A stretch of 10,080 bases of DNA from Flavobacteriaceae bacterium TMED68 (lineage in GTDB: Bacteria > Bacteroidota > Bacteroidia > Flavobacteriales > Flavobacteriaceae). Positions 1 through 10,080 of this stretch are shown here, piece after piece; the first letter of the stretch is position 1, and each line of letters starts with the position of its first letter. Location of the stretch: NCBI GenBank assembly GCA_002167525.1, contig NHDV01000017.1:20616-30695 (forward strand), written 5' to 3'. Made by a program: the position numbers and the translations under genes. The notes under the pieces were generated by a model. The model ran no database searches. It had not been told where the DNA came from and saw only the letters and a program-made list of their open reading frames with translations.

Positions 1-188
1 ATATCTTCAACCATTTTTTTGAAATCTTTCCATCTTGTTTTATCCTTCATCTCTAAAAAGCCCGCATACCATTCTAATCCCTGAATATCAAGCTTTGAGG
101 CTAATGAAATCCATTCTGAGATTTTCATGGACCCGTCCTTACACAAGGATTTCATATATGCTTTTGGGAAAACAGCTAATTTTGGCAT
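1..188 (-). CDS. Sugar phosphate isomerase/epimerase-like TIM-barrel protein (N-terminal fragment)
   Basis: Only the first 62 codons are present; the gene continues past the left edge. The reading starts with ATG at 188-186, giving MPKLAVFPKAYMKSLC and then ISLASKLDIQGLEWYAGFLE. An opening strand, then a helix, then D-x-x-GLE(W/F)Y is the usual N-terminus of the xylose isomerase-like / AP endonuclease family 2 TIM barrels annotated as sugar phosphate isomerase/epimerase. No signal peptide is visible, so a cytoplasmic enzyme is likely. It lies 26 bases downstream of the short-chain dehydrogenase stop, in the same direction, and is probably the last visible gene of the five-gene operon. Members of this superfamily isomerise or epimerise keto-sugars, and some act as lyases on 3-keto-glycosides; which applies here cannot be told from the fragment. 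Its metal ligands would lie outside the window. Confidence 0.75.
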   Translation of the reverse strand, partial: MPKLAVFPKAYMKSLCKDGSMKISEWISLASKLDIQGLEWYAGFLEMKDKTRWKDFKKMVED

Positions 189-214: not shown

Positions 215-1006
215 CTAGGTTAAATTTAAAGGGTCCTTAGAGATATTCCTTCCAATCATTGGATATTGTTCAAGATCAATTACTTGTCCACTGACAGGAC
301 CACTCTCATCTGAAAGCCAATAAGTCGCTAATGATGCAATTTCTTCAGGTAAAAGAATTCTACCTGAAGGAGCATAAATATTAGGCAAGTTTTTGTACCA
401 ATCATGTTTTAGACCATGATTTTTTTTTCGCTCAATCTCCTTTTCTGTTAAAACCCATCCTGGATTAATTTGATTAACTCTCACTTTATTTTTTCGATGA
501 AGACTGTCACCTAAATTACGAGTCATAGTCATTAAAGCTCCCTTTGAAATACTGTAAGCTAATAAATTTGGTTCTCCACTCCATGCATTTACAGATCCAA
601 TATTTAATACGGAGCCCTTGGATTTTGTTAAATAAGGTAAAGCAGACTTAATAAGAAAAAACGGAGTAAAGGTATTTACTTTCAATACTTCATTTAAAAG
701 TTTTTCATCAGTATTATCAATATTGGAATTAATTACCATAGCAGCATTATTTACAATCCCGTCGATTTTGTTCCATTTTTTTATTGCTAGTAACACTAAT
801 CTATCAGAACATCCATCGTTCGAAAGGTCCTCTACATGAAAAATACAATTTTCTTTTCCCAGGATGTTTCTAAGATTCTCAGCTAATTCTTTCTCTAAAC
901 CATGGATTACCAATTTGGCCCCCTCAGAAACAAATTTTATTGCTATTGCCTTTCCAATTCCCATTGTACTTCCTGTAATTATAATGACTTTATCTTTTAA
1001 CCTCAT
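215..1006 (-). CDS. Short-chain dehydrogenase/reductase (SDR), classical type
   Basis: The protein has 263 residues, normal for a classical SDR. Visible motifs are the cofactor loop TGSTMGIG (residues 11-18), NNAA (86-89), Asn111, and the catalytic set Ser138, Tyr151 and Lys155 (YSISK), followed by NPG at 181-183. It is soluble with no export signal, so it should oxidise a sugar or polyol hydroxyl, or reduce a keto-sugar, in the cytoplasm with NAD(P). The start is fixed by context: its ATG directly follows the TAA stop of the upstream dehydrogenase with no base between, which suggests translational coupling. It sits in an operon with another dehydrogenase, an HPS/KGPDC-type enzyme and a TIM-barrel isomerase. 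The family is certain. The substrate is not visible, although the context argues for a sugar or sugar acid rather than a fatty acid or steroid. Confidence 0.9.
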   Translation of the reverse strand: MRLKDKVIIITGSTMGIGKAIAIKFVSEGAKLVIHGLEKELAENLRNILGKENCIFHVEDLSNDGCSDRLVLLAIKKWNKIDGIVNNAAMVINSNIDNTDEKLLNEVLKVNTFTPFFLIKSALPYLTKSKGSVLNIGSVNAWSGEPNLLAYSISKGALMTMTRNLGDSLHRKNKVRVNQINPGWVLTEKEIERKKNHGLKHDWYKNLPNIYAPSGRILLPEEIASLATYWLSDESGPVSGQVIDLEQYPMIGRNISKDPLNLT

Positions 1007-2044
1007 TTAAATCGGTTTTAAAATACTTTTTATAATTTTTCCAGAATGCATTTCACTAAATGCCTTTTCCCATTCTTCGATTGACCAAACCCCACCAATA
1101 ATTGGTTTTACATTTAAAGTTCCTGCAGACAACAATTGAATAACTTTTTCCCAAATAGGCCAATTGTGACTAAAACTCCCTTGCAAACGAATATTTTTTT
1201 GAACAATCATGTCTAAAGAAAAATCTAATGGTTGTGGACCCCAGCCAACCTTAGTTATCTGCCCATTTGGTCTTACATTATCCATAGCAATTTTAAGAGT
1301 ATGGCTAACTCCAGCTGCATCAATTACTAAATCAACTCCTAAACCATCTTTTTCTTTAGCCCAGCTTGAAACATTTTTTACTATTGAATTGATATTGTAA
1401 TTTTTCAATTTAGCAAGTCTTGACCTATCACTTTCAAGACCTAAGACAGCAACATCTGCACCACATATTTTTGCAATTACGGCACAAAGAATTCCAATTG
1501 TTCCTGGGCCAATAACTAGAACTTTGTCTCCTGGTTTTATTTTTGAGTTTACTACAACAGCATTATATGCAACACAACATGGCTCTGTCAAACAAGCTTC
1601 TTCAAATGATAAATTGTCAGGAATATGGTGAAGACACCTAGCAGGTGTTCTAACATATTTGGTCATAGCACCATCAACACCATAACCAAAACCTTTTCTT
1701 GTGGGGTCAAGATTGTAAAGACCTGCTTTGGTTAAAGGGCTTTCAGTGTCAATAATAGCAGCAGTTTCGCTGACTACTCGATCTCCAACTTTCCATTTTT
1801 TTACTTTGTTTCCTATTTTAGATATTAAACCCCCAAACTCATGTCCTAAAACTACGGGGTAATTTACTTTCCAACTGTGATCTGAAGTCCATTGATGAAG
1901 ATCAGAACCACATACACCAACATTTTCTACTTGTAATAGAACATCGTGATCACCTATTTCAGGTAATTTGATTTCTCTTAACTCGACTGATCCCCTTACA
2001 CTAGAGTAATTTACAACTGCTGCTATTTTATTTGGAGACAACAT
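1007..2044 (-). CDS. Zinc-type medium-chain dehydrogenase (sorbitol/threonine dehydrogenase-like) lacking structural zinc cysteines
   Basis: The 345 residues match the medium-chain dehydrogenase family. The GroES-like N-terminal half carries the catalytic zinc ligands: Cys45 in GVCGSD, His68-Glu69 in GHEFGG, and Glu154 in TEPCC. The Rossmann half carries GPGTIG at 179-184. The arrangement resembles sorbitol, L-threonine and galactitol dehydrogenases, so the likely reaction is NAD(P)-dependent oxidation of a secondary hydroxyl on a sugar, sugar acid or polyol. An oddity is the structural-zinc loop. Its four cysteine positions, with the usual 3-3-8 spacing, are Asp99, Ser102, Thr105 and Asp113, so that site is gone while the catalytic site is intact. 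The gene abuts both neighbours, with stop TAG of the preceding gene touching its ATG and its own TAA touching the next ATG. Family assignment is firm; the substrate is unknown. Confidence 0.9.
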   Translation of the reverse strand: MLSPNKIAAVVNYSSVRGSVELREIKLPEIGDHDVLLQVENVGVCGSDLHQWTSDHSWKVNYPVVLGHEFGGLISKIGNKVKKWKVGDRVVSETAAIIDTESPLTKAGLYNLDPTRKGFGYGVDGAMTKYVRTPARCLHHIPDNLSFEEACLTEPCCVAYNAVVVNSKIKPGDKVLVIGPGTIGILCAVIAKICGADVAVLGLESDRSRLAKLKNYNINSIVKNVSSWAKEKDGLGVDLVIDAAGVSHTLKIAMDNVRPNGQITKVGWGPQPLDFSLDMIVQKNIRLQGSFSHNWPIWEKVIQLLSAGTLNVKPIIGGVWSIEEWEKAFSEMHSGKIIKSILKPI

Positions 2045-2749
2045 CTAATTTTTATTGTGTAGTACTTTTTGAGAATGAATAGCATTACATATTTTTTTCA
2101 AAGATGATTCTAAATTTCCATCAGCGGTTTTAAATGAATCTGCATCAATTACAAGCGGAGCTCCTAAAACAACTAAAGGTGCTCCATACTGAGGACACTT
2201 TATTGCTTGCTCAAGTGTTAATCCACCTACAGCTTGAACAGGTACATCTACTGCCTTTACAACTTCTAGCAGCTGATCTAGCGGACTTGGCATTTTCTCC
2301 CCTTTTGCACTAATACCTCTTCTTTCATCATACCCTATATGATGGATAATGTAATCACATCCTAAATCTTCTAATAATTTTGCACCGTCAATCATATTAT
2401 CACTAATCATATTATCACCCATTACTTTTATACCAAAATCTTTTCCTGCCTGAACAACGCATTTGATAGTTTCAGGATGAGCTCTGGCCATTACAACTAC
2501 GTGAGTAGCCCCAGCCTTTGCCATCATCTCTGCCTCAAGGTAACCTCCATCCATAGTCTTTAAGTCTGCAACTATAGGTACGTTAGGAAATGAATCTCTT
2601 AAATTTCTTACACCATGCAATCCTTCAGCTAAAATTAAAGGTGTACCAGCTTCTAGCCAGTCTACACCAGCTCTTAAAGCCATTGATGCAGTTTCTATGG
2701 CCTCATCTATATTTGTTAAATCAAGAGATATTTGAACTAAAGGATTCAT
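2045..2749 (-). CDS. HPS/KGPDC-family enzyme (OMP decarboxylase superfamily; 3-hexulose-6-phosphate synthase-like)
   Basis: This is a 234-residue (beta/alpha)8 barrel of the OMP decarboxylase superfamily. Residues that can be placed are Asp10 (ISLD), Glu33 in LEAGT (32-36), and the D-x-K-x-x-D signature Asp62-Lys64-Asp67 in ADLKTMD. These are the Mg2+ and enediolate-stabilising residues of 3-hexulose-6-phosphate synthase (HPS) and 3-keto-L-gulonate-6-phosphate decarboxylase (KGPDC). The later motif reads HIGYD (137-141), like the H-x-G-x-D of HPS, and lacks the arginine that KGPDC has in H-R-x-R-D. Chemistry through a 1,2-enediolate, either aldol cleavage/formation or decarboxylation of a keto-sugar phosphate, is therefore expected. 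No hexulose-phosphate isomerase partner or sugar kinase is visible, so formaldehyde fixation is not implied. It follows the Gfo/Idh/MocA gene by 15 bases and abuts the dehydrogenase gene. The superfamily is clear; the reaction is open. Confidence 0.85.
   Translation of the reverse strand: MNPLVQISLDLTNIDEAIETASMALRAGVDWLEAGTPLILAEGLHGVRNLRDSFPNVPIVADLKTMDGGYLEAEMMAKAGATHVVVMARAHPETIKCVVQAGKDFGIKVMGDNMISDNMIDGAKLLEDLGCDYIIHHIGYDERRGISAKGEKMPSPLDQLLEVVKAVDVPVQAVGGLTLEQAIKCPQYGAPLVVLGAPLVIDADSFKTADGNLESSLKKICNAIHSQKVLHNKN
2390..2419. repeat. 15-bp tandem duplication inside the HPS/KGPDC-like gene
   Basis: Two adjacent 15-base units, 2390-2404 and 2405-2419, agree at 14 of 15 positions. Because 15 is a multiple of three, the repeat encodes DNMIS followed by DNMID in residues 112-121, and the frame is preserved. 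It lies in the loop and helix just before the conserved HIGYD strand. It could be a recent duplication or chance similarity in AT-rich coding sequence. Confidence 0.6.
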
Positions 2750-2764
2750 TTCTAGAATTAGTTT

Positions 2765-4126
2765 TTAAAGAGACCAACCTTTTCGATATTCCTTATGAAC
2801 TAATTCATTAGCCATTTGATTATTAGTAAATCTTAAATTTTTGGAATCCCAAATTAATCTTTGATCTTTAAAACGAATGGCTATCATCCCCAAAAGAGCC
2901 ATTTCTGTTAAAGGTCCGCCATAGTCAAAATTTGATGAAGCTTGTTTTCCATCCTTGCAAGCACGTATCCAATCACCTTCATGAGACGTTTTAATGCGGG
3001 GAATTGTTTTTTTAGGTTTGACGTATTCGTTCATTTTTTGCTCTGGTAAGATTCTTAAACCACTAGCCCCATGAGAATCATGTATTATTTTACCTTTGTC
3101 ACCAACTAGCATTGCTCCACTTAAAGTAAACCTTTCACCTGGTTTGAATTCCTCTGGAATAGGGGGCAAAATCCTACCATCAGACCAAGTAAGATTGACT
3201 TCGGGGTGCTTACCTCTTTTTGGAAACTTCATTCTTACTATTGAAGCGGAGGGGTATGTTTGAGTTGAAATTTCAGGAATCCAATGAGTAGATGTTGCCT
3301 GTATTTCTGTCGGTGAGCCTAAATCAAGTGCATAAAATGAAGGGTCTAAAATATGACACCCCATATCTCCCATAGAACCCGTACCAAAATCTAACCACGC
3401 TCTCCATGACAAAGGATGATAATCAGGGTGATAATTACGATAAGGAGCTGGTCCAAGCCAAAGATCCCAATCAAGGCCTTCAGGTACCGGTGGCTTTTCT
3501 TTAGACATAGCTTTTACAGCAAATGTATCCCAAGCATGTCCCCCAACAGGCCTATCCGTCCATGCATGAATCTCTCTAACAGGTCCAATCGCATCATCAT
3601 TTATCCATTCCTTTAGACTTCTTATTTCATCAGAAGATCTGCCTTGATTACCCATTTGTGTTTGCACTTTATATTCTCTTGCTGCTTCAGTAATTTTCCT
3701 CGCCTCAAAAACAGTGTGAGTAAGTGGTTTTTGACAATAAACATGCTTGCCTAATTTGATCGCCATCATCGTAATTACAGCATGGTTATGATCAGGTGTG
3801 GCAACAATAACAGCATCAATATCCTTTTGTTTTTCAAACATTTTTCTAAAATCCTTGTATACTTTTGCTTTAGGATATTTTTTAAATGTGGATGCTGATT
3901 GTGTAAAATCAACATCACATAAAGCAACGATGTTCTCTTCTCCACAAGCACGTAGATTCACAGATCCCATTCCATATTTCCTAACACCTACTCCAGCAAT
4001 ATTGAGCTTATCACTTGGTGCCTTGAAACCCTTTCCACCTAAAACATGTCTCGGTAAAATAAACAATCCAGGTATAACAGATGTTTTTTTTATAAAGTTT
4101 CTACGGCTATTATTCTTTTTATTCAT
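2765..4126 (-). CDS. Tat-exported Gfo/Idh/MocA-family oxidoreductase (copy 1)
   Basis: The 453-residue protein opens with a twin-arginine signal, SRRNFIK (Arg8-Arg9), then a hydrophobic stretch to about residue 25, so it should be exported folded with its NAD(P) bound. The Rossmann domain (about 40-170) shows LNIAGVGV, VALCDVD (67-73), ATPDHNH (109-115), VYCQKPL (129-135; Lys133 is the conserved EKP-type lysine) and MGNQG (158-162). The C-terminal alpha/beta domain carries GDMGCH with Asp254 and His258 near the active site. Families of this kind oxidise or reduce a sugar hydroxyl, often at C3, using a retained cofactor. The glycine loop is unusual, reading GVGVRKYGMG. This gene is first in the minus-strand operon and is a clear paralogue of the gene at 8443-9891. 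GH109 glycosidases share the fold, but the QKP motif argues for the dehydrogenase type. Confidence 0.9.
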   Translation of the reverse strand: MNKKNNSRRNFIKKTSVIPGLFILPRHVLGGKGFKAPSDKLNIAGVGVRKYGMGSVNLRACGEENIVALCDVDFTQSASTFKKYPKAKVYKDFRKMFEKQKDIDAVIVATPDHNHAVITMMAIKLGKHVYCQKPLTHTVFEARKITEAAREYKVQTQMGNQGRSSDEIRSLKEWINDDAIGPVREIHAWTDRPVGGHAWDTFAVKAMSKEKPPVPEGLDWDLWLGPAPYRNYHPDYHPLSWRAWLDFGTGSMGDMGCHILDPSFYALDLGSPTEIQATSTHWIPEISTQTYPSASIVRMKFPKRGKHPEVNLTWSDGRILPPIPEEFKPGERFTLSGAMLVGDKGKIIHDSHGASGLRILPEQKMNEYVKPKKTIPRIKTSHEGDWIRACKDGKQASSNFDYGGPLTEMALLGMIAIRFKDQRLIWDSKNLRFTNNQMANELVHKEYRKGWSL

Positions 4127-4177: not shown

Positions 4178-4705
4178 TTATTTAAAATCTTTTAATTTTA
4201 ATTCATTGACTCCACCTAAAAACCGATTAATAGAGAGTGGACTTGGATGGAATGGATTACCAAGTTTTGTTATCCCAATACAAGAAAAAGAAAGATTTGA
4301 CTCTTTTAAAATTTTTAAAATTATTTCCATTTGATTTTTAAGATAATCATGTTTATTTACATTATTCCCCCAGCATAAAAGAACATTCTTGATCTTAAAA
4401 TCTCCATTTTTTACAATTTTATTAATCATTTCAAGATTTTCTTTTAAGTAAATTTTGTTTGGCTTATTAGGCAAATATTTAGGTTTAGAATACCTGCCCG
4501 GATAAAGATTTATTATCCACCAACCATCAAATCCATTTTGATTTGCAATAGATTCTATATTCTTTGAAGTAGGATCCATAGATGATTCATTCGCAGTGCT
4601 TGGATTTAATCCTATTACTAGTAGCTCTGAATTGCCTTTCCGCCCAAATAAAAATCTTTTCCTTCCATCTTTTTTAGGGCAACAAATAATTTCATTTGAA
4701 ATCAT
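4178..4705 (-). CDS. DUF1643 domain protein
   Basis: The 175-residue soluble protein has the whole DUF1643 pattern: an N-terminal R-x-x-L-F region, GLNPSTANE (32-40), DPT (44-46), WWIINLYPGR (62-71), LLCWGNN (109-115) and GITKLGNPFHPSPLS (144-158). The conserved residues cluster as for an enzyme active site: Asn33, Ser35, Asp44, Asn66, Arg71, Trp112-Gly113 and His153. No biochemical role for the family is known to me, so none is assigned. No signal peptide is visible, so it is cytoplasmic. It lies upstream of the minus-strand sugar operon with a 51-base gap, and head to head with the small membrane protein gene. Its content has no evident link to glycan breakdown, so it may be an unrelated gene caught between two carbohydrate clusters. 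Confidence 0.85.
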   Translation of the reverse strand: MISNEIICCPKKDGRKRFLFGRKGNSELLVIGLNPSTANESSMDPTSKNIESIANQNGFDGWWIINLYPGRYSKPKYLPNKPNKIYLKENLEMINKIVKNGDFKIKNVLLCWGNNVNKHDYLKNQMEIILKILKESNLSFSCIGITKLGNPFHPSPLSINRFLGGVNELKLKDFK

Positions 4706-4986: not shown

Positions 4987-5781
4987 ATGAAAAAATTACT
5001 TTTTATAATTTTTATTGTCTTGTCGTCTTGCAAAACAAATATTAAAAAAGAAAAATCATATCAACTTATTTGGAGTGACGAATTTAATCAGCAGGAAAAA
5101 AGATTAGATTCCTCCAAATGGTTCCTAGAAACTATTGCACCGAATAATGGAAGCTGGTACAATGATGAATTGCAACACTATACTGATAGAATTGATAACG
5201 TTTATGTTAGTAACGGGACCCTAAAAATAGTCGCTAAAAGTGAGGAATTTCAATCTTCCGGTACAATAAAATTTTATACCTCTGCACGGTTAAATTCAAA
5301 ATTATCATTTACTTACGGTAAAGTTGAGGTTAGCGCAAAACTTCCAAGAGCAAAGGGAACATGGCCAGCAATTTGGACTTTGGGTAGTAATTTCGAAACG
5401 GTAATATGGCCTGCATGTGGTGAAATTGATATTATGGAACAACTTTTTGAAGACTTTGAAATGGTTCAATGTGCAGTTCATACAACAGATACAAGTGGAG
5501 ATAATACAATTGTGAAACAAATAAGTGTTTCAGATGTAACTGAAAATTTTCACACCTATGGTTTAGAGTGGACAAAAGAAAACCTCAAGTTTTTTGTAGA
5601 TTCTGTTCATTATTTTACCTATGAGCCAAAAAATAAAACCCCAAAGAATTGGCCTTATGTTAATGACCAATTCATTTTATTAAATATCGCAATGGGGGGG
5701 AATCTAGGAGGCTCAGTTGATCCCAATTTCACTAAAGATGAAATGGAGGTTGATTTTGTAAGAGTTTATAAAGAAAAATAG
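4987..5781 (+). CDS. Glycoside hydrolase family 16 lipoprotein (laminarinase-like beta-glucanase)
   Basis: The 264-residue protein starts with a lipoprotein signal: basic MKK, a hydrophobic core, and lipobox LSSC with Cys15 as the lipidated residue. The rest is one GH16 domain without accessory modules. Landmarks are WSDEFN (29-34), the ELQHYT segment (61-66), GKVEVSAKLP (111-120), GTWPAIWTLG (124-133), the catalytic motif EIDIME with Glu146 as nucleophile, Asp148, and Glu151 as acid/base, and a C-terminal VDFVRVYK. The six-residue EIDIME form and the WPACGEIDIME context are typical of endo-beta-1,3-glucanases and laminarinases. Retaining hydrolysis of beta-1,3- or mixed-linkage glucan is therefore expected at the cell envelope. 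Other GH16 activities (agarase, carrageenase, porphyranase) are less likely but not excluded. The gene ends two bases from the convergent esterase gene. Confidence 0.9.
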   Translation: MKKLLFIIFIVLSSCKTNIKKEKSYQLIWSDEFNQQEKRLDSSKWFLETIAPNNGSWYNDELQHYTDRIDNVYVSNGTLKIVAKSEEFQSSGTIKFYTSARLNSKLSFTYGKVEVSAKLPRAKGTWPAIWTLGSNFETVIWPACGEIDIMEQLFEDFEMVQCAVHTTDTSGDNTIVKQISVSDVTENFHTYGLEWTKENLKFFVDSVHYFTYEPKNKTPKNWPYVNDQFILLNIAMGGNLGGSVDPNFTKDEMEVDFVRVYKEK

Positions 5782-7859: not shown

Positions 7860-8276
7860 CTAAGGTTTGAAAAATTCTTCTTCAGTAATTAAAAAATAGT
7901 TTTCGTTTTGTCGCGGATCAAAATAAAAATTAAATATGTGTTGGTCCCCAAAGTTGATTGTTGTCCTTTCATAATCTTCAAAATAAAATTCTTTTGACTT
8001 GAATTGAACATATAGCCGTGTAATAGGTAATTCCTCAAATTTGTATTTTTCTCTATTTCTAATGTAGACATGACGGATATATTTTTTTCTTTGATCTCGA
8101 ATTACAACTATAATATCATGATCCACCTCATTTACTATTTCTAATGATGCATTCGATATCTCGTTAAATTTATCTTCGGGGAATCTTGAAACAAAAGTCT
8201 TATCACCCGTAATTCCTCTTTGAGAAAATGCTAGCGTAAAAAAAGAAAGGTAAAAAACTAGAAAGTTAATTTTCAT
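7860..8276 (-). CDS. Small secreted protein of unknown function
   Basis: The 138-residue protein begins with a typical signal peptide, MKINFLVFYLSFFTLAFSQ, with likely cleavage after Ser18 (A-F-S before Gln19). The mature part of about 120 residues alternates charged and hydrophobic residues as in a small beta-sandwich: ASLEIVNEVDHDIIVVIRD, KYIRHVYIRN, KYKFEELPITRLYVQF and HIFNFYFDP. It has no cysteine. It lacks obvious catalytic motifs and I do not recognise a family. Its position suggests that it is first in a two-gene unit with the esterase (24-base gap), under the promoter candidate at 8312-8319. A glycan-binding or envelope role is a guess from context only. The start ATG is supported by the signal peptide following it directly. 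Confidence 0.75.
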   Translation of the reverse strand: MKINFLVFYLSFFTLAFSQRGITGDKTFVSRFPEDKFNEISNASLEIVNEVDHDIIVVIRDQRKKYIRHVYIRNREKYKFEELPITRLYVQFKSKEFYFEDYERTTINFGDQHIFNFYFDPRQNENYFLITEEEFFKP

Positions 8277-8442: not shown

Positions 8443-9891
8443 ATGAAACCAAATAAAAAAAATTCTTCAAGACGAAGTTTTATCAAAACAGGAATAGCTG
8501 CGTCTTCTATAATGATAGTACCAAGAAATGTTCTTGGTGGAAAAGGTTATATTTCTCCAAGTGACCAATTGAATATCGCAGCTATAGGCTCCGGAGGAAA
8601 AGGTGCGAGTGATATTAGTAACGCATCAGTAAGGGGAAGAGAAAGAGTTGTAGCTCTTTGTGATGTAGACTTTTCTGGTAGTGCCTCAAGTACTGTAAAA
8701 AAATTCCCTAAAGCTAAACTTTATGACGACTACAGAAGAATGCTTGACAAACAAAAAAATATAGATGCTGTCACAATTTCTACGCCAGATCATGTTCATG
8801 CACCTGCTGCGACATATGCCATGTTAAGAGGTAAACATGTATATGTTCAAAAACCAATGACTCACAATATTAGGGAAGCTAGAATTTTAACTGAAATGGC
8901 TCGAGAACAAAAGGTTGTTACTCAAATGGGAAACCAGGGGGGGTCTAACCCTCTTCTAAATATGGTTCAAGACTGGATTGATAAAGGTAAATTAGGCGCT
9001 ATATCAGAAGTTAAAATTTGGACAAATAGACCAGTTTGGCCCTCTGGAATTTCTATGCCAAAACCTGATATTTCAAAGAAACCAAGTGCGCTGAATTGGG
9101 ATTTATGGCTTGGTCCTGCAAAATTAAAACCTTATACTCCTAATATGCATCCCTTTAATTGGAGAGGTTGGTGGGATTATGGGACTGGTGCTTTAGGTGA
9201 TGTAGGATGTCACCTAATTGATATTCCCTTTAGGACACTTGGCCTAAAGTATCCAAAGGCTGCAGAATGCAGTATTGGAAGTGTTTTTTCTAAAATGTGG
9301 TCTCCCGATTTCAATCCTGAAAGCTGTCCTCCTTCATCATTTATAACTATAAATTTCGATGCTACTTCAAAATCAAAGTCACCTATAGTAATGACATGGA
9401 GCGATGGAGGTATAAGACCATCTCACCCTAGTGTCATTCCTGCAAATAGTGATATTGGTGGAAAAAATAGTGCTAATGGAGTATTAATAATTGGAGAAAA
9501 AGGAGTTATTTCAACAAATATTAACGACAGTGAACCGCTAATGCCTAAACTATATCTTAATGATGGTACAACTGATTTTGGACCTGAAGTAGAAAAAATG
9601 ACTGAACCTGAGTATGGTCATCAAAGAAAATGGGTAGATGCTTGCAAAGCTGGATTCAATAGTAAAGAACATTTAGCATTAACTTCATCTTTTGATTATG
9701 CCGGACCAATGACAGAAACAGTTCTTATGGGTAATCTTGCTATTAGAAGTTATATGCTAAGAGATGAAAGCACAAAAGAATTTTTAGCTAGAAAGAAACT
9801 TTTATGGGATGGTGATAATATGAAAATTACCAATTTAGAAGCTGCTAATCAATTTGTCACAAGAGGTTACAGAGATGGGTTTACAGTTTGA
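8443..9891 (+). CDS. Tat-exported Gfo/Idh/MocA-family oxidoreductase (copy 2)
   Basis: The ATG at 8443 is chosen over an in-frame TTG at 8419 because an AAAGGA lies 8 bases upstream of it and the Tat signal follows at once; this gives 482 residues. SSRRSFIK (Arg10-Arg11) and a hydrophobic stretch form the twin-arginine signal. The Rossmann domain has a regular glycine loop, IGSGGKG (48-54), then VALCDVD (70-76), STPDHVHA (113-120), VYVQKPM (133-139; Lys137) and MGNQGG (162-167). The C-terminal domain has GALGDVGCHLID, with Asp253 and His257 equivalent to those of copy 1. The shared signal-region sequence LGGKG and long identical blocks show that it is a paralogue of the gene at 2765-4126. A sugar oxidoreductase acting in the periplasm with bound NAD(P) is expected. 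It stands alone, with a divergent upstream unit and a terminator directly downstream. Confidence 0.9.
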   Translation: MKPNKKNSSRRSFIKTGIAASSIMIVPRNVLGGKGYISPSDQLNIAAIGSGGKGASDISNASVRGRERVVALCDVDFSGSASSTVKKFPKAKLYDDYRRMLDKQKNIDAVTISTPDHVHAPAATYAMLRGKHVYVQKPMTHNIREARILTEMAREQKVVTQMGNQGGSNPLLNMVQDWIDKGKLGAISEVKIWTNRPVWPSGISMPKPDISKKPSALNWDLWLGPAKLKPYTPNMHPFNWRGWWDYGTGALGDVGCHLIDIPFRTLGLKYPKAAECSIGSVFSKMWSPDFNPESCPPSSFITINFDATSKSKSPIVMTWSDGGIRPSHPSVIPANSDIGGKNSANGVLIIGEKGVISTNINDSEPLMPKLYLNDGTTDFGPEVEKMTEPEYGHQRKWVDACKAGFNSKEHLALTSSFDYAGPMTETVLMGNLAIRSYMLRDESTKEFLARKKLLWDGDNMKITNLEAANQFVTRGYRDGFTV

Positions 9892-9918
9892 TATTTTTTA
9901 AAATAAATAAGAAATAAG

Positions 9919-9945
9919 AACCCTGTTAAAAAGCAGGGTTTTTTT
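9919..9945 (+). terminator. Intrinsic terminator after Gfo/Idh/MocA copy 2
   Basis: AACCCTG (9919-9925) and CAGGGTT (9934-9940) form a perfect 7-bp stem with an 8-base loop, followed at once by T9941-T9945, so T runs unbroken from 9939. It sits 27 bases after the stop at 9891. The last T bases are also part of the stop codon of the convergent DUF1080 gene. On the minus strand the hairpin is followed by a less pure T-rich stretch, so it may work in both directions. Confidence 0.88.
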
Positions 9946-10080
9946 ATAGCTTTCGCATCCAGATATTTCTATAGCTAACCTTACCATTTTTATCGTGATC
10001 TTGAAGGATTAATACTTTTCTTGTACCTTTTTCTATACCAAGTGTGGGGCCATTAAATTTAACACCATTTTGTATAATTA
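9944..10080 (-). CDS. DUF1080 (3-keto-disaccharide hydrolase family) protein, C-terminal fragment
   Basis: The last 44 codons of a minus-strand gene are visible and end with TAA at 9946-9944; the rest lies beyond the right edge. The readable tail includes GVKFNGPTLG, KVLILQDHDKNGKVSYRN and then IWMRKL at the very end. LQDH followed by (V)xYRNIW(I/M)R at the C-terminus is the hallmark closing strand of the concanavalin-like DUF1080 fold. This family is known to act on 3-keto-glycosides produced by Gfo/Idh/MocA dehydrogenases, and members are often exported. The neighbouring Tat-exported oxidoreductase fits such a partnership. Signal peptide and active-site residues cannot be checked here. This stretch is too short for most gene callers, but the C-terminal motif makes the family call good. 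Confidence 0.8.
   Translation of the reverse strand, partial: IIQNGVKFNGPTLGIEKGTRKVLILQDHDKNGKVSYRNIWMRKL

Follow-up and report, generated by a model that had tools for sequence, protein, structure and literature searches.

The unusual feature of the window, by which we mean the whole 10,080-base stretch of DNA analysed here, is an operon that an earlier note on this DNA had passed over: a gene for a predicted exported oxidoreductase (GMO2), followed on the same strand by genes for a HUMPS-family protein, a zinc-type alcohol dehydrogenase (ADH), a short-chain dehydrogenase/reductase (SDR) and a TIM-barrel protein. A second oxidoreductase gene, GMO1, lies near the right edge beside the end of a DUF1080 gene. 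Protein families, export motifs, operon layout, conservation and gene linkage are all taken from sequence. We give a probability of roughly 0.5 to the explanation as a whole, namely that GMO1, GMO2 and a DUF1080 protein form a 3-keto-glycoside route and that the four-gene cassette behind GMO2 feeds the released sugar into central metabolism. The features are as follows.

3..188, minus strand: N-terminal portion of a PF01261 TIM-barrel protein resembling sugar isomerases/epimerases, truncated at the left edge (from its L001 orthologue)
215..1006, minus strand: SDR (PF13561, 144 bits; abuts the ADH gene)
1007..2044, minus strand: zinc-type ADH (PF08240 and PF00107; abuts the HUMPS gene)
2045..2749, minus strand: HUMPS-family (OMPdecase suprafamily) protein with a DxKxxD motif, not clearly assignable to either HPS or KGPDC (PF00215, 79 bits; TIGR03128, 137 bits; alignment)
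2765..4126, minus strand: GMO2, the other Tat-exported BT2158-like protein, opening the left operon (NF058561; 8tdf; 15-base gap to the next gene)
4987..5781, plus strand: GH16 protein with an EIDIMEQ motif, a variable neighbour and probably no fixed part of the route (PF00722, 88 bits)
8443..9891, plus strand: GMO1, Tat-exported Gfo/Idh/MocA protein, BT2158-like predicted glycoside 3-dehydrogenase (open frame; NF058561; 8tdf; QKP and CH motifs)
about 9920..9946, no strand: hairpin with a T-run, lying where GMO1 and the DUF1080 gene converge (by eye)
9944..10078, minus strand: end of a DUF1080 (PF06439) gene convergent to GMO1, covering its last 44 residues and truncated at the right edge (weak PF06439 match; full orthologues at L001, L002 and L006; fold of one L006 homologue)

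Results

Two exported BT2158-like oxidoreductases

The earlier note had described a Tat-exported Gfo/Idh/MocA enzyme ending beside the C-terminus of a DUF1080 protein, with a second Tat-exported paralogue in the same window, and our reading of both genes agrees. GMO1 is an open frame of 482 residues with PF01408 (63 bits) and PF19051 (51 bits) domains in the Pfam scan and SRRSFIK close to its N-terminus; GMO2 has 453 residues, carries the twin-arginine motif SRRNFIK and is 42% identical to GMO1 in an alignment. Both motifs are by-eye readings, the Pfam TAT model matching GMO1 at an E-value of only 0.2. Each protein combines its export motif with a nearly full-length alignment to NF058561, the model for the BT_2158 glycoside 3-dehydrogenase: GMO1 scores 446 bits (residues 9-472, profile positions 1-439 of 487) and GMO2 506 bits (profile positions 1-437 of 487), both short of the curated cut-off of 750 bits. 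PMC11300592 describes BT2158 itself as a periplasmic glycoside 3-dehydrogenase.

The best solved relatives of both proteins are 8tdf and 8tdh, titled just as dehydrogenases, with 8tdf matching GMO1 at E 3.5e-91 and GMO2 at E 6.2e-101. GMO2 aligns with 8tdf at an (E/Q)KP lysine and a CH histidine, and both motifs also occur in GMO1 (there as QKP); we take the two residues to be catalytic, as in 8tdf. In a quick tree, GMO2 clusters with three proteins that score above the BT2158 cut-off and are 45-47% identical to it, and GMO1 falls in a different clade from GMO2 and those proteins.

The DUF1080 gene at the right edge

Only 52 bases separate the GMO1 stop from the convergent DUF1080 frame. On its own, the 44-residue tail inside the window matches PF06439 weakly (15 bits, under the gathering cut-off of 26.8, with E 0.026 and covering profile positions 155-187 of 187) and could do so by chance. 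Its identity as a DUF1080 gene, claimed in the earlier note, is borne out by full-length genes in relatives. L001 and L002 have a complete gene in the same convergent slot, 82% and 80% identical over the tail, respectively, and L006 has a tandem pair there, of which the nearer gene matches 34 tail residues at 53% identity and the farther one 44 residues at 68%. Against PF06439, the L001 gene and the L006 pair reach 105-124 bits, above its cut-off, and the L001 and L006 proteins begin with a hydrophobic, signal-like stretch that has no twin arginine by eye. Tandem DUF1080 pairs stand beside GMO1 homologues at L006:11495-13113 and L048:1570-3213, and the window may likewise run into a second copy.

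Structure prediction had been proposed as a check on this gene, and a model of the farther L006 homologue (pLDDT 82.7) does have the DUF1080 fold, with 4qhz, 8v31, 3hbk, 3osd and 8rr2 among its matches. The best fold match is 4qhz (45% identity, TM 0.74). Four entries within ranks 1-20 concern 3-keto chemistry, at 17-20% identity and TM ~0.57: 8v31 and 8tda are titled 3-keto-2-hydroxy-glucal hydratase, and 8rr2 and 9fbe are titled 3-keto-glycoside eliminase/hydratase. The remainder of these ranks carry putative glycosyl or sugar hydrolase titles, one of which (3hbk) names DUF1080, and 3osd, also matched, is BT2157; from rank 21 onwards the titles are those of other proteins, at E 1e-5 or worse. 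In sequence searches, 4qhz was the only solved match to the L001 protein at E 0.001 (E 8.3e-50), the characterised 3-keto DUF1080 structures giving none at that threshold, and this closest relative carries no stated activity. Because the L006 model shares its fold with 3-keto-glycoside eliminase/hydratases, elimination and hydration are favoured over plain hydrolysis.

Since the two genes converge and a hairpin with a T-run lies between them, GMO1 and the window's DUF1080 gene are best regarded as neighbours rather than parts of one transcript. A single GMO1-DUF1080 operon is thus ruled out in the window, and same-strand neighbours exist in other lineages.

Linkage of GMO1 homologues with DUF1080 and with GH16

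Linkage was counted at 79 of the 80 fetched GMO1 loci, L076 being left out because its predicted frames held no recognisable GMO1 match. A DUF1080 gene is present in the fetched stretch at 28 of these 79 loci and lies within 3 kb of the GMO1 homologue at 21. The two genes share a strand and are at most 77 bases apart, or overlap, at ten loci (L015, L038, L039, L041-L045, L047 and L080). In the window's close relatives the DUF1080 gene is convergent, as it is here, and a neighbour block is common to them, so that these loci are not independent. Family, fold and repeated linkage together make oxidation followed by elimination and hydration the best reading for the exported enzymes, which probably cut sugars by first oxidising them rather than by plain hydrolysis.

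At seven loci (L038, L039, L041, L042, L044, L045 and L047) a GMO1 homologue, a DUF1080 gene, a GMC oxidoreductase gene and a Gluconate_2-dh3 gene form a one-strand series, with the GMC domain scanned in L044 and Gluconate_2-dh3 in L042; sugar oxidases of two types may be encoded together in a single operon in this L038-L047 series.

The earlier note placed a non-hydrolytic 3-keto-glycoside route beside a classical GH16 hydrolase. Family, fold and linkage give the route good support, and the tie to GH16 and laminarin has proven loose. GH16 occurs at 4 of the 80 GMO1 loci (L003, L006, L007 and L067) and was not found in the stretches fetched for L001 and L002, the closest loci by GMO1 (95% identity), which keep GMO2, DUF1643, an 89-residue protein (in part), a SASA esterase and a 138-residue protein; it is present in L006, the closest locus by GMO2 (97%) and HUMPS (98%). 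The laminarin link is accordingly loose, but it may still hold. As a gene that comes and goes among relatives, GH16 was rejected as a fixed component of the route. Two smaller genes accompany these groups in the window. A DUF1643 gene at 4178-4705 sits between the two groups of sugar genes and is kept in some relatives (PF07799 in the L001 orthologue), and the gene for the 138-residue protein, at 7860-8276, recurs at 10 of the 80 GMO1 loci, all of them close relatives.

Layout and conservation of the HUMPS cassette

In the left operon, GMO2 is followed after 15 bases by the HUMPS gene, which abuts the ADH gene, which in turn abuts the SDR gene; the TIM-barrel gene begins 26 bases further on. 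The window's piece of the TIM-barrel protein is 94% identical over 62 residues to its L001 orthologue, whose whole gene scores 117 bits against PF01261. Beyond the position of the window's left edge, L001 continues with the rest of the TIM-barrel gene, an SMP-30 lactonase gene and a gene for a PF10142 protein. Past the latter two, on the opposite strand, the L001 genome has a GH3 gene (PF00933, PF01915; L096:16694-19108).

A match to the HUMPS protein at E 1e-20 or better was found in 10 of 149 genomes of the family of the query genome (G001), with at least 77% identity in six, and matches at E 1e-40 or better in 5 of 395 genomes of its class, 12 of 395 of its phylum and 20 of 291 of the order of G247, these samples overlapping. 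The cassette sample is the full set of 35 genomes whose match reaches E 1e-40 or better; four distant matches from the query's family and a second fragment in G712 lie outside it. The stretches fetched were 18-20 kb long, or shorter (5.0-16.4 kb) at L094, L133, L137, L139 and L146. HUMPS, ADH, SDR and TIM-barrel genes stand on one strand within 7 kb at 32 of the 35 loci, with the order, as read from the rows, maintained. The exceptions are L104, L133 and L137, the last two on short contigs. At L104 the HUMPS gene (9527-9964) looks broken and an SDR gene was not found, and the cassette there may be decaying. An SMP-30 gene follows the cassette at 11 of the 35 loci.

The HUMPS protein keeps the family's DxKxxD motif as DLKTMD, conserved across the 35 cassette sequences, and its closest solved relatives are hexulose-6-phosphate synthases (9lj9, 3ajx). 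Its score of 137 bits against TIGR03128 (3-hexulose-6-phosphate synthase) falls short of the cut-off of 200. Three signatures, HHIGYD, VMGDN and GAP, are conserved in all 35 sequences and differ from the corresponding residues of two HPS sequences and, in the alignable part, from those of one engineered KGPDC. For UlaD (KGPDC) we assume Glu112, Arg139 and Arg192, with functional roles at positions 112, 139, 169 and 192. Relative to the engineered KGPDC sequence, UlaD-type residues are missing from the HUMPS protein, which has Asp at 112 and Tyr at 139; at the GR site, which lies past the end of the KGPDC fragment compared, it presumably has Ala, judging by eye. Score cut-offs and residue differences led us to reject both HPS and KGPDC as its identity. 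The ADH matches models for L-threonine dehydrogenase and IolM, both below their cut-offs. Neither a 6-phospho-3-hexuloisomerase, sought among the cassette genes of the 35 loci, nor a kinase is among the four genes of the cassette, and the HUMPS enzymes known to us so far act on phosphorylated sugars. A literature search, covering few subscription papers, returned no report of a HUMPS protein in 3-keto-sugar catabolism.

Ties of the cassette to DUF1080 and BT2158-like genes

To count DUF1080 genes near the cassettes we used a profile of our own, followed by a check against Pfam. Such genes occur in the fetched stretch at 8 of the 35 loci (L091, L093-L096, L131, L132 and L142, where L096 is the L001 locus), all PF06439-confirmed, and were not found in the stretch at the other 27. 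From genome-wide counts 1.96 would be expected (P ~6e-4); with the query genome left out, 7 of 34 loci have one (P ~0.002). Within ~2.5 kb, a distance chosen after the fact, there are 4 against 0.61 expected (P ~0.003). All of these chance figures presuppose an even spread of DUF1080 genes and independent genomes. The gene lies directly upstream of HUMPS on the same strand at L095, L131 and L142, and at L132 (11321-12202) it separates ADH from SDR within the cassette, giving four of 35 loci with a same-strand DUF1080 gene inside or directly upstream.

BT2158-like genes adjoin the cassette as well. A GMO1-type gene stands downstream of the TIM-barrel gene at L147 (76% identity) and L154 (47%), and GMO2 is upstream of HUMPS at L096. 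Taken together, 7 of 35 loci (6 of 34 without the window's closest relative) have a same-strand DUF1080 or BT2158-like gene within or next to the cassette, and no such gene was found at the other 28. All 35 cassette genomes have matches to DUF1080 and to the BT2158 model, the latter passing its cut-off in three, and each has 7-26 DUF1080 matches. In the query's family, 89 of 149 genomes carry DUF1080; by raw per-genome counts, the six with a close HUMPS match have from 9 to at least 20 copies, and the remaining 143 have a median of 2.

Other neighbours vary. At L103 the cassette adjoins a twin-arginine Gfo/Idh/MocA gene outside the BT2158-like group (21-23% identity). At L101, L104, L143 and L155 its neighbours are a LacI regulator, an MFS transporter and a GH13-type gene (LacI scanned in L104, the GH13-type gene in L101, the remaining copies assigned by clustering), which suggests an alpha-glucoside setting for these four. 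A single strand of L131 (580-14606) carries DUF1080, HUMPS, ADH, SDR, TIM-barrel, GMC-type, Gluconate_2-dh3, deacetylase-like and FGGY pentulose kinase genes.

Discussion

We propose that exported GMO1 and GMO2 would act in the periplasm, using bound NAD to oxidise C3 of a glycoside, that the DUF1080 protein would carry out elimination and hydration of the 3-keto-glycoside to release a 3-keto-sugar, and that the cytoplasmic cassette (HUMPS, zinc ADH, SDR and TIM barrel, with the SMP-30 lactonase in L001) would convert that sugar for entry into central metabolism. We infer C3 oxidation, elimination and hydration, and the action of the cassette on the same sugar, from the family assignments and linkage described above; a role for the cassette in using the released product is a fair inference from its linkage to DUF1080 and BT2158-like genes in a minority of loci. 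By analogy only, the cassette chemistry might run through oxidation at C1, opening of a lactone and HUMPS-type cleavage beside the C3 ketone, yielding a pentulose for the TIM-barrel protein to epimerise. Weighing against the explanation as a whole are the NF058561 scores under 750 bits, the lack of a stated activity for 4qhz and the 28 of 35 loci without an adjoining partner gene, as well as the lack of a kinase in the cassette although the HUMPS enzymes known to us use phosphorylated substrates. If the cassette does cleave 3-keto-sugars, it would represent a second way of using glycans without plain hydrolysis or return to glucose, and a conserved HUMPS cassette beside 3-keto-glycoside enzymes in several lineages provides concrete candidate genes.

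It is possible, if on balance unlikely, that the pathway is redox-neutral instead, with GMO1/GMO2 and DUF1080 cutting the glycoside, the same or a related dehydrogenase reducing the 3-keto-sugar to hexose, and the HUMPS cassette serving another sugar. There are precedents for this: PMC11239390 describes DgpA/D3dgpA as oxidising glycosides when a 3-oxo-sugar is present, PMC10628242 describes an Agrobacterium tumefaciens operon in which 3-keto-glucose is reduced to glucose, and the 27 cassette loci whose fetched stretch lacks DUF1080 point the same way. A separate function for the cassette is, however, disfavoured by a HUMPS gene starting 15 bases downstream of GMO2, and by GMO1-type and GMO2-type genes both adjoining the cassette in different lineages. 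We also consider it unlikely that the cassette is a general polyol, inositol or aldonate route, or a formaldehyde-fixing 3-hexulose-6-phosphate synthase system, that comes near DUF1080 genes only through the abundance of sugar genes in these genomes. Hexulose-6-phosphate synthases are indeed the closest solved relatives of the HUMPS protein, the ADH has its sub-threshold matches to L-threonine dehydrogenase and IolM, and cassette genomes have 7-26 DUF1080 matches each; yet the four cassette genes include no 6-phospho-3-hexuloisomerase, the HUMPS protein departs from two HPS sequences at conserved positions, and same-strand DUF1080 genes lie inside or directly upstream of the cassette at 4 of 35 loci.

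That GMO1, GMO2 and the window's DUF1080 protein have all drifted to other chemistry and form no C3 ketone seems improbable. Scores far under the curated NF058561 cut-off would fit such drift, as would a nearest solved DUF1080 relative, 4qhz, of no stated activity and the description in PMC9007349 of the DUF1080 protein THTE_1561 as an endo-xanthanase/lichenase. Against it stand the retained lysine and histidine motifs of GMO1 and GMO2, the repeated linkage of GMO1-type and DUF1080 genes and a fold that the L006 model has in common with 8v31, 8rr2 and 8tda.

As to what the HUMPS protein itself does, we suggest very tentatively, and as a doubtful case, that it belongs to an uncharacterised isofunctional group that would cleave the C1-C2 bond of a 3-keto-sugar or 3-keto-aldonate to yield CO2, formate or formaldehyde plus a pentulose. 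If so, periplasmic 3-keto-glycosides would pass into pentose metabolism, bypassing reduction to hexose. The L131 kinase bears on this point. It scores 661 bits against TIGR01315 (cut-off 408.7), and at E 1e-80 a single cassette genome of the 37 has such a kinase, namely L131's own (G674), beside its cassette; among the matches scored at that threshold there were none in the 149 genomes of the query's family or the 291 of the order of G247. Its same-strand position in L131, with no such match scored in these two background samples, was counted in favour of C1-C2 cleavage, and the 36 of 37 cassette genomes without a TIGR01315-type kinase, in which another kinase would be needed, were counted against it, leaving our assessment of this cleavage unchanged. 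At E 1e-80, then, the idea that cassette genomes generally carry this pentulose kinase was not borne out.

A close counterpart to the exported part of the proposed route is BT2157/BT2158 of Bacteroides thetaiotaomicron, with which the window shares the NCBIfam model for the exported Gfo/Idh/MocA 3-dehydrogenase and the fold of the DUF1080 protein. It differs in that GMO1 and GMO2 are below the equivalog cut-off, with GMO1 in a separate clade, and in that the operon opened by GMO2 includes a HUMPS-family protein; to our knowledge, no such protein is part of the BT2157/BT2158 route. HPS (9lj9, 3ajx) has the DxKxxD motif and overall similarity in common with the window's HUMPS protein, which has the HHIGYD, VMGDN and GAP signatures in place of HPS residues. 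The Ula route for L-ascorbate (UlaG, UlaD, UlaE) unites a lactonase, a HUMPS decarboxylase and a PF01261 epimerase in one pathway. The cassette similarly combines HUMPS and PF01261 proteins, with a lactonase at some loci, but its genes include no kinase or phosphotransferase, and the UlaD-type residues are absent.

The GlycDH operon of A. tumefaciens, as far as the available part of PMC10628242 describes it, proceeds by oxidation, elimination, hydration and reduction and includes sugar-isomerase-like proteins. The window shares this route logic and such proteins, but the A. tumefaciens eliminase is a TIM barrel, and that part of the paper describes neither DUF1080 nor HUMPS. In Caulobacter, the available part of PMC9007349 gives LacABC as performing periplasmic C3 oxidation, with a DUF1080 protein and with sugar epimerases and a reductase nearby, and states the fate of 3-ketogalactose as unknown. 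C3 oxidation, as proposed here, and DUF1080 are common to both systems; the window differs in having Gfo/Idh/MocA enzymes, and a HUMPS protein is not mentioned for LacABC in that part of the paper. A GMC and Gluconate_2-dh3 gene pair does adjoin the cassette at two loci, divergent from it at L102 and downstream on the same strand at L131, where a second GMC-type gene lies divergently beyond the FGGY pentulose kinase gene.
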